From: Mytilinidion resinicola
Taxonomy: Eukaryota > Ascomycota > Dothideomycetes > Mytilinidiales > Mytilinidiaceae
Assembly (NCBI RefSeq): GCF_010093595.1
Contig: NW_022985445.1
Span: forward strand, 434,001-498,000
Length of the DNA stretch: 64,000 bases
Direction: 5' to 3'
The stretch's first letter is position 1, and every line of letters begins with the position of its first letter. Shown in pieces: positions 26,512 through 38,785 of this stretch. The position numbers were made by a program, and so were the translations under genes. Below the pieces are notes generated by a model, which worked only from the letters and a program-made list of their open reading frames with translations, had not been told where the DNA came from and made no database searches.

Positions 26512-28164
26512 TTATGGCCGGTTGGCCACCTCCTTAACAGCTCCAGGAGCTCCAGGGTTGGGTGCATACAGTGTGCCCTCATTCCACTCTTTGCCCTCCA
26601 TATCCTTCTTCCACGTCGGAGTCCATCCTTGCGCCGGCTTCAAACCAGCTCCCACAAACGCCTGCTCGAAGTCATGCTTGATGTCATCGATATGTTCCAA
26701 GCCGAGGCTCACTCGAATCATATCTGGTGTGACGCCGCCTCGAATCTTTTCCTGGTCGGGAATCTGTTGATGGGTTGTCCGCCACGGGTGGATGATGAGT
26801 GTCTTCGCATCTCCGACGTTGGCAAGATGAGAGCAGAGCTTCAGGTTGTCAACCACAGCGGCAACCTCGTTGATGTTTCCAGCTACACCGAAGGTAAGAA
26901 CACCTCCGGCTCCTTTCGGAAGCACTTTTTGGGCGCGCTCGTAGTCTGCATGCGATTCGAGGCCAGGGTAGTTGACCCAAGCGACGCATGGATGGCTCTG
27001 CAGCCACTTTGCCATTGCGAGAGTATTTTCGACGTGTCGTTGACCTCGTAGGGCTAGGGTTTCCAGACCTTGGAGGAACAGCCAAGCGTTGAAAGGGGAC
27101 ATACACGGACCTAGGTCACGCATTGCGTCCATGCGAAGTTTGGCCGACAGCGCTTTCAGACCATAGGTCTCCCAGAACCGCATGCCATGGTAGCCATCTG
27201 CGGGTTCGGTGAAGCCGGGGAACTTTCCGCTGGCAGACCAGTCGAAATGGCCGCCGTCGATGACGATTCCACCCATTGAAGTACCATGGCCGCCAATCCA
27301 CTTGGTACAGCTGTGGGTGACGATGTCGGCACCCAAAGAGATGGGTTTGCAGAGGTAGCCACCCATGCCGAATGTGTTGTCGACGATAAGAGGTATTCCG
27401 GCCTCGTGGGCAACATTGGCAATTGCCGCTATGTCTGGCACGTTGAACTGGGGGTTCCCAATTGTTTCCACATACACCTTTCCTTTTATTAGCTAACTTG
27501 CAAATATGGTCTATTTTGATTAATGGGGGGGCACAAACCGCTCGGGTGTTCTCGTCGATGGCATTCTTGATGTTATTGGGGTCTTGTCCCTCAACAAATT
27601 TGCAGGTAATGTTGAACTTCTTCATGTAAACACGGAACTAAAGTCCAAAATTAGTAAAAGCTTCAGCACTCGGAGATACGCAGCATACCTGGTTGAATGT
27701 TCCTCCATAGAGATTCATCGTGCTGATGAAGTTCTGTCCTGGTTCACATGCTGATGTGATGGCCATGAACTGATGTACGAGTTAGCTTCGTTGCGCCTAT
27801 GCTTCCAAAGAACTCACCTGAGCAGCATGGCCAGACGCTGTTGCGACTGCTCCTACTCCCCCCTCGAGCATCGACATGCGGTTCTCGAATACGGAGTTGG
27901 TGGGGTTGCCCATGCGAGTGTAGACGTAGCCATCCTTAGACCATGCGAACTTACTAGCACCATCGGCGGCATCTGTGAAGTTGTATGCGCAAGTCTGGTA
28001 GAGAGGAAGCGCACGAGAACCATTCACGGGATCTGGTTCTTGAGCGCCATGGAGAGCAAGGGTCTCAAATTCTGGGGTCCTGATAGTCTGTCAGTATGTT
28101 ATAGAGAAAGCTGGTAGGGGGGGCAAGCTGACTTCGTAACATTACCCAAGTGACCTGATACCAT
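26512..28164 (-). CDS. O-acetylhomoserine sulfhydrylase-type PLP enzyme
   Basis: Five exons on the reverse strand: 28133-28164, 27818-28079, 27689-27769, 27539-27637 and 26512-27477, giving 479 residues with all phases consistent. The sequence is a Cys/Met-metabolism PLP enzyme of the O-acetylhomoserine (thiol)-lyase class: [48 protein letters not shown], and the PLP lysine in [12 protein letters not shown]. The usual reaction replaces the acetyl group of O-acetylhomoserine with sulfide to make homocysteine. Relatives such as Fub7 and LolC use other nucleophiles. The C terminus runs about 38 residues past the usual family end ([20 protein letters not shown] onward). It is the first gene of a homoserine-centred block. 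Confidence 0.93.
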
Positions 28165-28284
28165 TTTGACAAGGCTTGTTTGATAGGGTTTGATTTTGAA
28201 ATGTGATAATGTAGTGGAATTATCTACGAGAGCAGTAGTGAGTGGATTAGAGAGATGGAGTGAGGAGGAATCCCTTTTATGTAC

Positions 28285-28292
28285 TATATATA
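28285..28292 (-). promoter_or_regulatory. TATA element of the PLP-enzyme gene
   Basis: TATATATA lies about 121 bases upstream of the ATG at 28164 on the coding strand, a plausible distance for a fungal core promoter. Confidence 0.45.
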
Positions 28293-28495
28293 AGAAGTAT
28301 TTGGTCTGAGCGATTTGGGTGACTGACCAATCGGCAAGGACCCGAGAGTATGCGTTTATTATCTCTAGCCGATCCATGATAGCATTGCCTCGCATGTTAT
28401 CAGAAGCCGATTGCTCTACATGCCCGTGTCTACGCGGGCTATTGGATGCCGTGAGCCATGTGAGGCAAAGCCCGATAGCAGTCCCCGCTTGAAAA

Positions 28496-28507
28496 CGGCC
28501 TCAGCCG
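28496..28507. promoter_or_regulatory. Candidate Zn2Cys6 site CGG-N6-CCG upstream of the PLP-enzyme gene
   Basis: CGGCCTCAGCCG is an inverted pair of CGG half-sites six bases apart, 332 bases upstream of the ATG at 28164. An identical spacing occurs upstream of the aspartate kinase gene. Gal4-type dimers bind such pairs. Assignment to the cluster regulator is inference. Confidence 0.35.
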
Positions 28508-29305
28508 AAAAGTATAGCGCGTGAGCGTGTGCCAGCGTCACTGGTACAGGAAAAGCGCATCGTACGTGGACACACTCCGAGCTTTCTGTCTAGCTGGATG
28601 CTGAGTCCCAAGAGGACGCATGAGTAGATGGTGGTGAGATGACGACGCTTTTTTTGGCGGCAGGGCGGGTTTCTAGACCTCGGGGCGGGATACAGTCCGT
28701 GCATAGAATGATGTATGGCAGGCGAAATGTCTTTCTCGTCATTCTCTTCCTCGAGGTGTATTGTCTTTTGAGGGGTTTGTGCAACGTTCGCCATCTCACA
28801 GCTCAATATTCAAATTAATATAGCATGAGAGTGTACTGTTTAAGAGGCTAACTTCAGGTAGATCGAAATCACATCAGGTAGATTATGGATAATAACGTAT
28901 TCACAGGCTCGTATGTGTGTATCTGATTCTCTTCCGATTCCGTTACGGTCTTGCACTAAAATTTGTGTTCAAGATCCGAGTATCAATAGATGGACCCATG
29001 TCGCTCCTCGGGCTCCTGATCTATACAAGTGGTCTCAGTAATATCTGGGATATCTCTCGGATCGTTCAACTTGCAAATCGCATTGATAAAGACGCTCCCA
29101 TTCCTTTCGTAATGGTTTGCGTCTATTGGGTCCAAAATATCTTGACTAAATTAGAACCCCGAAGAAAAGTAGGTTATGATAGCTTGCTGGGGACTACCAG
29201 ATGACATCGTCTGAGGTGGCCTGGCGACTTTACAGGTGGTTCAAACCGGTTTACTTTCTTCTTTCCTCAGGTTTTTGAAAATATATCGAGGGAATCCAGA
29301 CGGTG

Positions 29306-36593: not shown

Positions 36594-36605
36594 CGGCTGC
36601 TGCCG
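36594..36605. promoter_or_regulatory. Candidate Zn2Cys6 site CGG-N6-CCG upstream of aspartate kinase
   Basis: CGGCTGCTGCCG lies 223 bases upstream of the kinase ATG. It has the same half-sites and spacing as the site upstream of the PLP-enzyme gene. Confidence 0.35.
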
Positions 36606-36739
36606 CTCCGCTGTGATCCGCAATCAAAACCCGGGGCCCAGTGCTCTTCGGCATCCCCCTAGCGTCTTCGGCAGCAACTCAGTGGCAATCAATTGAACCT
36701 CACGAGAGATTTGCATAGGTTACACAGAGAGAATGCTCC

Positions 36740-36747
36740 TATAAATA
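36740..36747 (+). promoter_or_regulatory. TATA box of the aspartate kinase gene
   Basis: TATAAATA lies 81 bases upstream of the ATG at 36828, a typical position. Confidence 0.5.
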
Positions 36748-36827
36748 AGGAAGTTTTCACAGCCATGTAGTATTCGTGAATAATCGTACCTTCATTCTCC
36801 TTAGCATCCTCACATCTTGAAATAACT

Positions 36828-38785
36828 ATGGGTTCGATTGAAACACGTCAATGGGTTGTACAGAAATACGGCGGTACTTCTGTGGGGAAGCTACTGGACA
36901 CCATCACTGGCACCATCATCCCAGACTACTTGGAAAGGTTCAAAGTAGCTGTGGTTTGCAGCGCTCGATCAGGGACTCAAAAGACGCAGGGAACGACATC
37001 GCTTCTTCTGGAGGCTATTCATCTCGCTACCTCCAGCGAGACGTCAACCGTGGAGCTCGATCAAGTTATCGACATCATCAAGCAAGAGCATCTTGAGGCC
37101 GCGGAAGTTACTGTCGGTGGCGCTGACCAGCGAGAAGGCGCTCAGGCAGTGCTTGGCGAGCTACTTGGGAGCATCGAGAATGACTGCGAGCACCTCCGAA
37201 GCTTTCTCAAGGCGACATGGACCATCGGAGAGATATCAGAGCGCACTCAGGATCGAGTCCTTGCGGTTGGCGAGACACTAGCTTGTCGGCTGGTAGTCGC
37301 TTCCCTGAAAGTGAAGGTTTGTGATTCGTTACCATTTGAGATAGCACTGACTTATATCTGTACAGGACATCGATGCTGAAGTAGTCGTCTTGGATGATAT
37401 TGTGCAGAAAACCTACGGAAGTCGTCAGAAAGAGCTCGCCGCTGCGTTCAGACGTCACCCTGCAAAGTTTCTGGGAGGCCTGGCAGGCGCAATTCGAAAA
37501 AAGATAGATGGTTGCAAAGAGCGGGTGCCTGTCGTTACCGGTATAAACCCCTTTCGTGCTTTTCTTTTGATGTGATCCGCAGAAAATAACATCCTTGTAC
37601 AGGTTTCTTTGGCGCGATGCCTGAATCGCTAGTGAGCAGCGTAGGACGGGGATATTCTGATCTCTGTGCCGCTCTCTGCGCGGTTGCAGTGGGCGCCGAA
37701 GAGCTGCAGATCTGGAAAGAGGTCGATGGCATATTTACAGCAGATCCTCGAAAGGTGAAGTCGGCCAGACTGCTCGCTACGGTGACTTCGGAGGAGGCTG
37801 CCGAGCTTACGTACTACGGGAGCGAGGTGTGTCTCCCCGTGATTCCAATCTATTGGCATCCTTTAGATTCCAGTTGAGATCCCTAACAGATGTGGCGTTA
37901 GGTGATCCATCCTCTGACTATCGAGCAAATCTGCAACGCGCAGATACCGCTGCGATTGAAGAATGTAAAACACCCAGAGAGACCAGGAACCATAGTTTTC
38001 CCCTCCCTTGGGTCGCCAGCTACCTCACCAAAGTCTACTCCAGGAAATTCATCGCCTGTTTCCTCTGAAGATGATGCCGCGAGAACAAAGGCTGTTTTCA
38101 TGACTAAGAACGGGTACTATGGAGAGAGTCAATATCGACGTACGCCCACGGCTGTGACGGCAAAGGACTCCATTACGGTGTTCAACATCCGCTCGAACGG
38201 TAGAGCAAGACCTCAAGAGTTCCTCGGACAGATAGCGCAGCGCCTCGGACGCCATGATTACACAATTGATCTCATCAGCAGCAGCCAACAGATGCTAAGT
38301 CTTGCAGTCTCCTCTGACGGTTCGAGTAAGAGCAACGGTAACATCGAAGAAACCGTGGCAGAACTCTCCGAGATCGGAATCGTGACCGTGGCCAGACACA
38401 TGTCTATTGTTTCGGTTGTCGGGCATAAGATGAAGAATATGGTTGGTATATCAGGAGAGGTTTTCAGCGCCTTGGCTAGTGCGAGGGTAAACATCTATCT
38501 GATCAGTCAAGGAGCCAGCGAGATAAACATATCGTGAGTCTGCTGTCTCGAGCCTAATAGGTTATTCCTGGAAATTTTTGAAGAGCTTAGGCTGATATTC
38601 CTTCGTAGATTCGTAGTGAAAGCGCAGGATGCTCTACTTGCAATGGAAGTCGTTCACACAAACGTGATGCGTATACCTCTACACTCTGAGCAAGAGAACA
38701 GCTTCATTAGAGGTAGGTTCAAGAAAATGACGGTCTCTGAACCTTCCAATTCACTAACGTTTCAAAAGGCCCATGGCTGTACTAG
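36828..38785 (+). CDS. Aspartate kinase
   Basis: Six exons: 36828-37316, 37366-37540, 37603-37826, 37902-38533, 38609-38712 and 38769-38785, giving 546 residues with all phases consistent; yeast Hom3 is of similar length. The start is ATG 36828 (MGSIETRQWVVQKYGGTSVG), with the nucleotide-binding KYGGTSVG motif next to it. Further kinase motifs are GFFGAMPESLVSSVGRGYSD, EVDGIFTADPRKV and YYGSEVIHPLTIEQI. Two C-terminal ACT-type regions follow (SITVFNIRSNGR and ISGEVFSALASARVNIYLIS), so allosteric control by threonine is plausible. The final exon codes only five residues. The enzyme phosphorylates aspartate, the committed step to homoserine. The next two enzymes, semialdehyde dehydrogenase and homoserine dehydrogenase, are not in the window. 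Confidence 0.93.

Follow-up and report, generated by a model that had tools for sequence, protein, structure and literature searches.

The locus analysed here raises the question of what a nitrilase gene does beside genes that would make and use O-acetylhomoserine (OAH), and whether the set serves a single job. The block lies at positions 26512-38785 of a window of Mytilinidion resinicola DNA, the window being the whole stretch of 64,000 nucleotides that was analysed. The sequence-only reading had described it as five adjacent intact genes of the types listed below, and spliced models together with Pfam bear this out. All five are multi-exon genes with open, spliceable frames and GT-AG introns, and there is one Pfam assignment per gene (Cys_Met_Meta_PP, Abhydrolase_1, AA_kinase plus ACT, Zn_clus and CN_hydrolase).

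26512..28164, minus strand: OAH sulfhydrylase-type PLP enzyme; spliced model of 5 exons, 472 aa, whose first exon, of 3 nt, is conjectural
29306..31748, minus strand: Zn2Cys6 regulator with Zn_clus; 6 exons, 703 aa
32553..33948, minus strand: nitrilase, nearest to the NIT4 type; 9 exons, 325 aa, with E49, K136 and C170 present
33949..34523, no strand: divergent promoter region of the nitrilase and the acetyltransferase; gap between the two gene models
34524..36110, plus strand: predicted homoserine O-acetyltransferase (MetX/Met2 type); 4 exons, 461 aa
36828..38785, plus strand: aspartate kinase with ACT domains; 6 exons, 546 aa

Two of the models, those of the acetyltransferase and the nitrilase, were compared with deposited records. 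The acetyltransferase model equals a deposited M. resinicola protein (P0241) letter for letter, and the deposited nitrilase corresponds to our spliced model minus 3 N-terminal residues. A broken nitrilase, as implied by the catalytic Glu missing from the ORF listing, was rejected, since splicing places an intron at this site. The four promoter stretches of the block have no clear motif in common: 8-mers found in three of the four show no excess (2 seen, 1.7 expected), and 7-mers a mild one (36 seen, 21.5 expected).

The non-overlapping ORF list of the window contains 44 ORFs of at least 150 aa, 37 of them outside the block. A Pfam scan, which is weak for multi-exon genes, covered 19 of these 37 and one cyclophilin ORF. 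Nine of the 20 scanned ORFs have a match (C2H2 zinc finger, CREG, DnaJ, Exo_endo_phos, cyclophilin, zf-C2HC5, TYW3, methyltransferase and PCI/eIF3m), and 11 have none. Among these 20 ORFs there is no sign of a PKS, an NRPS, a transporter or an oxidase. Thus, the absence of polyketide and NRPS machinery near the block, noted earlier from the sequence, holds for the scanned part of the flanks.

Family membership and second copies

The PLP enzyme scores 611.7 bits with TIGR01326 (OAH/OAS sulfhydrylase; cut-off 495.1) and 443 bits with PF01053 (cut-off 27), and by these curated cut-offs it is a predicted member of the OAH/OAS sulfhydrylase family. It scores as an ordinary member of this family, which counts against the cyanide reading presented below. 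The label "FUB7-class", which the sequence-only reading had given the enzyme, fails. FUB7 (8erb) is 72% identical to the other sulfhydrylase of the genome and 50% identical to the block enzyme. Moreover, in a tree of 33 rows (P0006, P0011, P0015, P0018 and many unnamed rows being omitted), FUB7 joins the other Mytilinidion copy with a support of 100/99, and the block enzyme falls into a separate clade of 17 rows supported by 100/100. Membership in the FUB7 class was rejected on both grounds, identity and tree. The clade has a signature of 12 positions with a residue common to at least 15 of 16 clade rows and found in 0 of 29 others; K47 and W50, just ahead of the conserved Y-[ST]-R, are among them.

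The acetyltransferase reaches 351.8 bits with the MetX model NF001209 (cut-off 331) and 419.9 bits with TIGR01392, which is under the cut-off of 500; it is predicted to be a homoserine O-acetyltransferase of the MetX/Met2 type. In a tree of 44 rows the second copy of the genome groups with eight basidiomycete rows (100/99), opposite the other 34 rows, only part of which have been shown to lie in clusters. The outgroup HAT_p2 has a branch length of 10, and the rooting of this tree is therefore worthless. The aspartate kinase scores 289 bits with TIGR00657 (cut-off 208.7). A second kinase on contig C8 is 42% identical to it over query residues 63-501, and the ACT region reads SSQQMLSLA in the block kinase and SSEVHVSMA in the second copy. 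This difference would fit an altered feedback control, as feedback-resistant mutations of yeast HOM3 map to the corresponding ACT region. For the regulator, Zn_clus was detected with an E-value of 1e-5, scored on a 692-aa version with a different tail.

The best PDB chain for the nitrilase is Arabidopsis NIT4 (E-value 1.5e-87; 45% identity over 309 residues), a beta-cyanoalanine nitrilase. The columns of E49, K136 and C170 are invariant across 17 aligned nitrilases. With NIT4 as the closest solved nitrilase and the Glu-Lys-Cys triad kept, the block enzyme is classed as a putative NIT4-type nitrilase. It does not belong to the Nit6803 family (TIGR04048), for which its 197.9 bits lie below the cut-off of 502.6. 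The fungal rows have a 12-residue pattern (10 of 11) and ADDLP (11 of 11) in stretches where all six non-fungal rows, and likewise NIT4, have YPRG and ADxR. The fungal stretches are thus unlike those of NIT4 and bacteria, and the substrate may therefore be neither beta-cyanoalanine nor a close homologue of it. The fungal cluster rows of the nitrilase tree group together with a support of only 86/84, and two other nitrilases of the M. resinicola genome are found on very long branches. One further nitrilase gene of this genome, apart from the block, has 8uxu ("Nitrilase") as the best PDB match of its product and a far lower score with cyanide hydratase. For two other fungal NIT4-type nitrilases, beta-cyano-L-alanine was the best of the nitriles tested, according to passages of PMC7503981.

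Second copies of the kinase, the acetyltransferase and the PLP enzyme are present on three other contigs of the genome. This agrees with the view of the block genes as extra copies and speaks against their being the sole ones. Moreover, the trees, which covered the PLP enzyme and the acetyltransferase, place both block proteins apart from the other copies. Because second copies exist and these two proteins group separately, we rejected the idea that the block consists of housekeeping methionine genes.

Linkage in fungi and prokaryotes

Linkage was counted for three of the five genes, using the organism-named rows among the best 120 matches per gene (17 for the sulfhydrylase, 93 for the nitrilase and 79 for the acetyltransferase). 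For the sulfhydrylase, the named rows from basidiomycetes, other fungi and bacteria were omitted, for the nitrilase one named bacterium and for the acetyltransferase most basidiomycetes. The listed contig is the longest of its 90% cluster; equal size therefore means one contig, and unequal size is no proof of two. Within this sample, nitrilase and acetyltransferase are on one contig in 28 of the 29 named organisms common to both hit lists, M. resinicola included. The same is true for sulfhydrylase and nitrilase in 5 of 7 organisms and for sulfhydrylase and acetyltransferase in 4 of 5, the exceptions (1/29, 2/7 and 1/5) being those not on one listed contig. In three fungi all three genes are together on one contig, which in one case, that of Lepidopterella, is 20 kb long. 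The locus numbers of nitrilase and acetyltransferase, available for five species, are consecutive in four and seven apart in Hypoxylon sp. CI-4A. Finally, the carriers of linked genes belong to five classes of Pezizomycotina.

Thus, three of the five genes form a conserved fungal gene cluster, and the expected synteny in other species is confirmed for the PLP enzyme, the nitrilase and the acetyltransferase. The grouping exceeds chance because it recurs in other fungi, and since the linkage has been kept across five classes, at least three of the genes should do one job together. We found no paper in the open-access literature on the cluster or on such a joint job.

We also surveyed the best 80 of at least 584 prokaryotic loci with NIT4-like nitrilases, each with up to 6 kb of flank and many ending at contig ends. 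An OAH sulfhydrylase neighbour occurs in 1 of the 80, the Chloroflexi locus L086, where it adjoins the nitrilase and is accompanied by a MetA-like gene recognised by eye. Neither a MetX-type acetyltransferase nor an aspartate kinase was detected in any of the 80 loci at an E-value of 1e-8. PALP-family neighbours (cyanoalanine/cysteine synthase) were likewise found in 0 of 80 with seven rough queries, a weak test, since the queries were the longest ORFs of unspliced fungal loci. One locus in 80 provides neither independent linkage nor support for a cyanide reading, and a bacterial counterpart was therefore rejected as support for the cluster.

A candidate route from cyanide to glutamate

The reading we prefer, to which we give a probability of about one half, is that the block is a cyanide-assimilation cluster in which OAH and cyanide would yield gamma-cyano-alpha-aminobutyrate and then glutamate or glutamine. 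The extra aspartate kinase and acetyltransferase would drive aspartate via homoserine to OAH, with the aspartate-semialdehyde and homoserine dehydrogenase steps supplied by the housekeeping pathway. Next, cyanide would take the place of acetate, a step that we assign to the diverged sulfhydrylase-type enzyme as a proposed gamma-cyano-alpha-aminobutyrate synthase. The NIT4-like nitrilase would then convert the product to glutamate (perhaps glutamine) and ammonia, and the Zn2Cys6 protein would turn the cluster genes on. The net reaction would be aspartate + HCN -> glutamate + NH3. A bacterial OAH sulfhydrylase (attributed to Omura 2003) reportedly has gamma-cyano-alpha-aminobutyrate-forming activity. 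In passages of PMC6271081, a Corynebacterium OAH sulfhydrylase is used with azide, and acceptance of cyanide is ascribed to O-acetylserine sulfhydrylase, its sister enzyme. No word starting with "cyan" occurs in a review of the methionine enzymes of fungi (PMC11506715). The homoserine-derived, nitrile-linked product foreseen by the sequence-only reading stands as the most economical one; the nitrile, however, would be a cyanide-made intermediate that is subsequently hydrolysed, not a specialised end product. The wider claim, that filamentous fungi of at least five ascomycete classes have a dedicated, co-regulated cluster fixing HCN into glutamate/glutamine via OAH with its own deregulated kinase, is made tentatively and falls a little short of even odds.

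Alternatively, the block might be a small specialised-metabolite pathway in which the PLP enzyme couples OAH to a carbon nucleophile, as FUB7 does, the nitrilase acts on a nitrile product or precursor, and an unusual amino acid results. We consider this possible but doubtful. FUB7, an enzyme of C-C bond chemistry, is a relative of the PLP enzyme at 50% identity, and the nitrilase shows divergence close to the motifs of its active site. In the Fusarium fusaric acid cluster (FUB1-12), as described in parts of PMC6738028, an aspartate kinase (FUB3), a homoserine O-acetyltransferase (FUB5), an OAH (thiol)-lyase (FUB7) and C6 regulators are likewise joined. However, the block PLP enzyme lies outside the FUB7 clade, the 20 scanned flank ORFs contain no recognised tailoring enzyme, transporter or carrier, and we judge a linked core in five classes to be wide for such a cluster. 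The same 20 ORFs include none of the fusaric acid markers PKS (FUB1), NRPS-like (FUB8) and transporter (FUB11), in agreement with the earlier statement that this is not a fusaric acid cluster.

It is improbable that the genes are a second homocysteine/methionine or sulfide-scavenging set with the nitrilase as a passenger or unrelated nitrogen scavenger. The PLP enzyme is above the TIGR01326 cut-off, and we know of no residue that excludes its use of sulfide, but the genome already has a second sulfhydrylase, acetyltransferase and kinase, and a nitrilase that shares a contig with the acetyltransferase in 28 of 29 organisms is hardly a passenger. Least likely of all, the nitrilase would degrade external nitriles, for example plant beta-cyanoalanine, which NIT4-type genes may let phytopathogenic fungi detoxify (parts of PMC7503981), and the homoserine branch would meet a linked but separate need, which leaves the linkage of OAH-making and OAH-using genes to the nitrilase unexplained.

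If the cyanide-assimilation reading is true, fungi gain a gene-defined route for carbon and nitrogen from cyanide, one that is unlike cyanide hydratase, rhodanese and the plant cyanoalanine pathway. Moreover, a NIT4-like nitrilase would be tied to a natural substrate different from beta-cyanoalanine, and the enzymes could serve in cyanide clean-up and the production of labelled glutamate. Should the nucleophile be another one, the cluster still makes the question testable by a single in-vitro assay.

Relation to known systems

In plants, beta-cyanoalanine synthase, a PALP enzyme, and then NIT4 lead to Asn/Asp. The route proposed here resembles it in that a PLP enzyme would make a cyanide-derived amino-acid nitrile for a NIT4-type nitrilase. 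In contrast to plants, the acceptor would be OAH and the product gamma-cyano-alpha-aminobutyrate, which is one carbon longer and would give Glu/Gln; the PLP enzyme comes from a different family (PF01053), and genes for the supply of the precursor and for a regulator lie in the same cluster. The OAH sulfhydrylase ascribed to Omura 2003 matches by name, in the kind of enzyme and the proposed reaction, but its source is bacterial, and to our knowledge it has no linked nitrilase, acetyltransferase or kinase. NitTv1 and NitAb, set beside the block nitrilase by description only, are also fungal and NIT4-related; parts of PMC7503981 state that the pair acts on beta-cyano-L-alanine and that NitAb homologues are widespread in Pezizomycotina. 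The word "homoserine" occurs 0 times in PMC7503981. Finally, the fusaric acid cluster, as far as the cited parts describe it, resembles the block in containing an aspartate kinase, a homoserine O-acetyltransferase, an OAH-lyase-type enzyme and regulators, whereas the block differs by its nitrilase and by a PLP enzyme from outside the FUB7 clade.

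Five linked genes and their conservation in other fungi

When both strands of window 26512-38785 were read and spliced by hand, five intact genes were recovered, confirming what the sequence-only reading had observed. The window's contig has 1,960,146 bases, and the introns of the block genes have GT-AG ends and lengths of 45-104 bases. The features are as follows.

Within 26512-38785, minus strand: O-acetylhomoserine (OAH) sulfhydrylase-type PLP enzyme, Zn2Cys6 regulator and nitrilase (hand-spliced models)
Within 26512-38785, after the minus-strand three, plus strand: homoserine O-acetyltransferase and aspartate kinase (hand-spliced models)
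28165-29164, 31749-32552, 33949-34523 and 36111-36827: promoter stretches compared by seven-mer count

The acetyltransferase model is identical to the protein deposited for Mytilinidion resinicola; the nitrilase record from this species lacks the first three residues of the window model and otherwise equals it. A raw ORF listing had given the impression that the nitrilase lacks the catalytic glutamate; an intron lies exactly there, and the residue is present after splicing. The four promoter stretches show no excess of shared words of 8 bases or more; 36 seven-mers occur in at least three of them, a mild excess over the 21.5 expected from 30 first-order shuffles. Outside the block, and at some distance from it, G+C reaches 0.59-0.67 at 8001-14000 and 46001-52000, versus about 0.48-0.51 in the cluster; several long ORFs in these two stretches have no Pfam match.

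Linkage in other fungi was read from protein records, which print no gene context, by equal printed contig size plus locus tags in some names. The counts cover the nitrilase, acetyltransferase and sulfhydrylase in the named organisms common to both match lists. Of the five-gene synteny that had been put forward as a check, conserved linkage was found for these three genes: nitrilase and acetyltransferase lie on an equal-sized contig in 28 of 29 organisms (the window's species counted), sulfhydrylase and nitrilase in five of seven, and sulfhydrylase and acetyltransferase in four of five. In Lepidopterella palustris a single contig as short as 20,183 bases holds all three, and Dendryphion nanum and Parahypoxylon ruwenzoriense have them on one contig each. 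Where the record names print a number for both nitrilase and acetyltransferase, the two are consecutive in four of five species (Fonsecaea multimorphosa, Pycnora praestabilis, Scytalidium lignicola and Thermoascus thermophilus) and seven apart in the fifth, Hypoxylon sp. CI-4A. The misses are Exophiala xenobiotica, Xylariaceae sp. AK1471, Paecilomyces, whose records come from different strains, and Daldinia sp. EC12, whose printed protein numbers are still close (312766 and 312762). Mytilinidion is a dothideomycete, and the six carrier species looked up span Dothideomycetes, Eurotiomycetes, Leotiomycetes, Sordariomycetes and Candelariomycetes. The block is a real metabolic cluster, conserved for at least these three genes and undescribed within the reach of these searches: no paper describing it was found in the open-access literature, covered mostly as titles and abstract starts, which is weak evidence of novelty.

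Second copies elsewhere in the genome

The kinase, acetyltransferase and sulfhydrylase of the block are extra copies. A search of the 47.1 Mb genome (44 contigs) for second ones, suggested by the sequence-only reading, found all three, spread over three contigs (C7, C26 and C8), with none on the window contig, C9. The second sulfhydrylase, on C7, is 54% identical in the best exon and, once spliced, 55% identical across 428 residues; the acetyltransferase on C26 matches in two stretches (52% and 39%), and the kinase on C8 at 42%. In an acetyltransferase tree of 44 rows, rooted by an outgroup on a branch too long to trust, the second copy and eight rows from basidiomycetes form a group (100/99) to which the cluster acetyltransferases do not belong. 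Contig C26, which carries this Met2-type copy, also holds a third MetX-like family member (256800-259200; 38% to the window acetyltransferase), which from its resemblance we take to be perhaps a serine O-acetyltransferase.

In the ACT stretch (window 37902-38533) the cluster kinase has SSQQMLSLA versus SSEVHVSMA in the second copy, a stretch presumably with a role in feedback. By this comparison with the second copy only, the cluster kinase possibly serves in supply and escapes inhibition by the end product.

A possible route for cyanide

The best solved relative of the nitrilase is Arabidopsis NIT4 (E 1.5e-87, next chain 7.7e-53; 45% identity over 309 residues). Two papers describe NIT4 as highly specific for beta-cyanoalanine, an intermediate in plant cyanide detoxification (PMC6214922), and two other fungal nitrilases of NIT4 type as most active on that compound (PMC7503981). 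The cluster nitrilases carry a signature of their own, a 12-residue stretch in 10 of 11 fungal rows plus ADDLP in 11 of 11, at sites where NIT4 and six bacterial-type rows have YPRG and ADxR; their substrate is therefore likely a nitrile related to, but different from, beta-cyanoalanine.

Prokaryotes have at least 584 NIT4-like loci; among the 80 best, a sulfhydrylase neighbour occurs in one, and MetX-type acetyltransferase and aspartate kinase neighbours in none. A weak test found no PALP neighbours in these 80 either. The single case, a Chloroflexi locus (L086:349-4405), combines a MetA-like gene (by eye), an OAH sulfhydrylase and a divergent NIT4-like nitrilase.

The most economical reading of the block is cyanide assimilation via OAH, to which we give a probability of about 0.5. 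The kinase and acetyltransferase would act in supply, drawing aspartate via homoserine to OAH, with the two dehydrogenase steps provided by the general pathway; cyanide would replace the acetate of OAH, and the nitrilase would finish the route by converting the resulting nitrile, gamma-cyano-alpha-aminobutyrate, to glutamate or glutamine. A bacterial OAH sulfhydrylase is reported to form this nitrile from OAH and cyanide. Such a mechanism would require no carrier, oxidase or transporter, which agrees with the flanking sequence in the part that was scanned. Against this reading count the near absence of such linkage among the 80 prokaryote loci, the lack of an 8-mer excess in the promoters and the ordinary sulfhydrylase score of the PLP enzyme. 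In the chief alternative, a carbon nucleophile would be used to make a specialised amino acid. Cyanide assimilation is open to one decisive assay.

Comparison with the fusaric acid cluster

The window PLP enzyme scores like an ordinary OAH/OAS sulfhydrylase. In a 33-row tree it falls in a clade with 100/100 support whose 17 rows come from scattered Pezizomycotina; 12 positions, several of them a short distance N-terminal to the Y-[ST]-R motif, set this clade apart from 29 other rows. It is 59-62% identical to the basidiomycete and bacterial sulfhydrylases compared, closer than to FUB7 or the second copy. The C7 copy (1598300-1601300), probably the housekeeping one, groups with FUB7 (100/99), and FUB7 is 72% identical to it versus 50% to the window enzyme. 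The label 'FUB7-class' once given to the window enzyme is thus wrong, and by this identity and grouping FUB7 seems to have branched rather directly from the ordinary sulfhydrylase of fungi. The block resembles the fusaric acid cluster (FUB3, FUB5, FUB7 and FUB10, with functions listed in PMC6738028) in the kinds of gene present; judged on FUB7 alone, the likeness does not reflect common descent.
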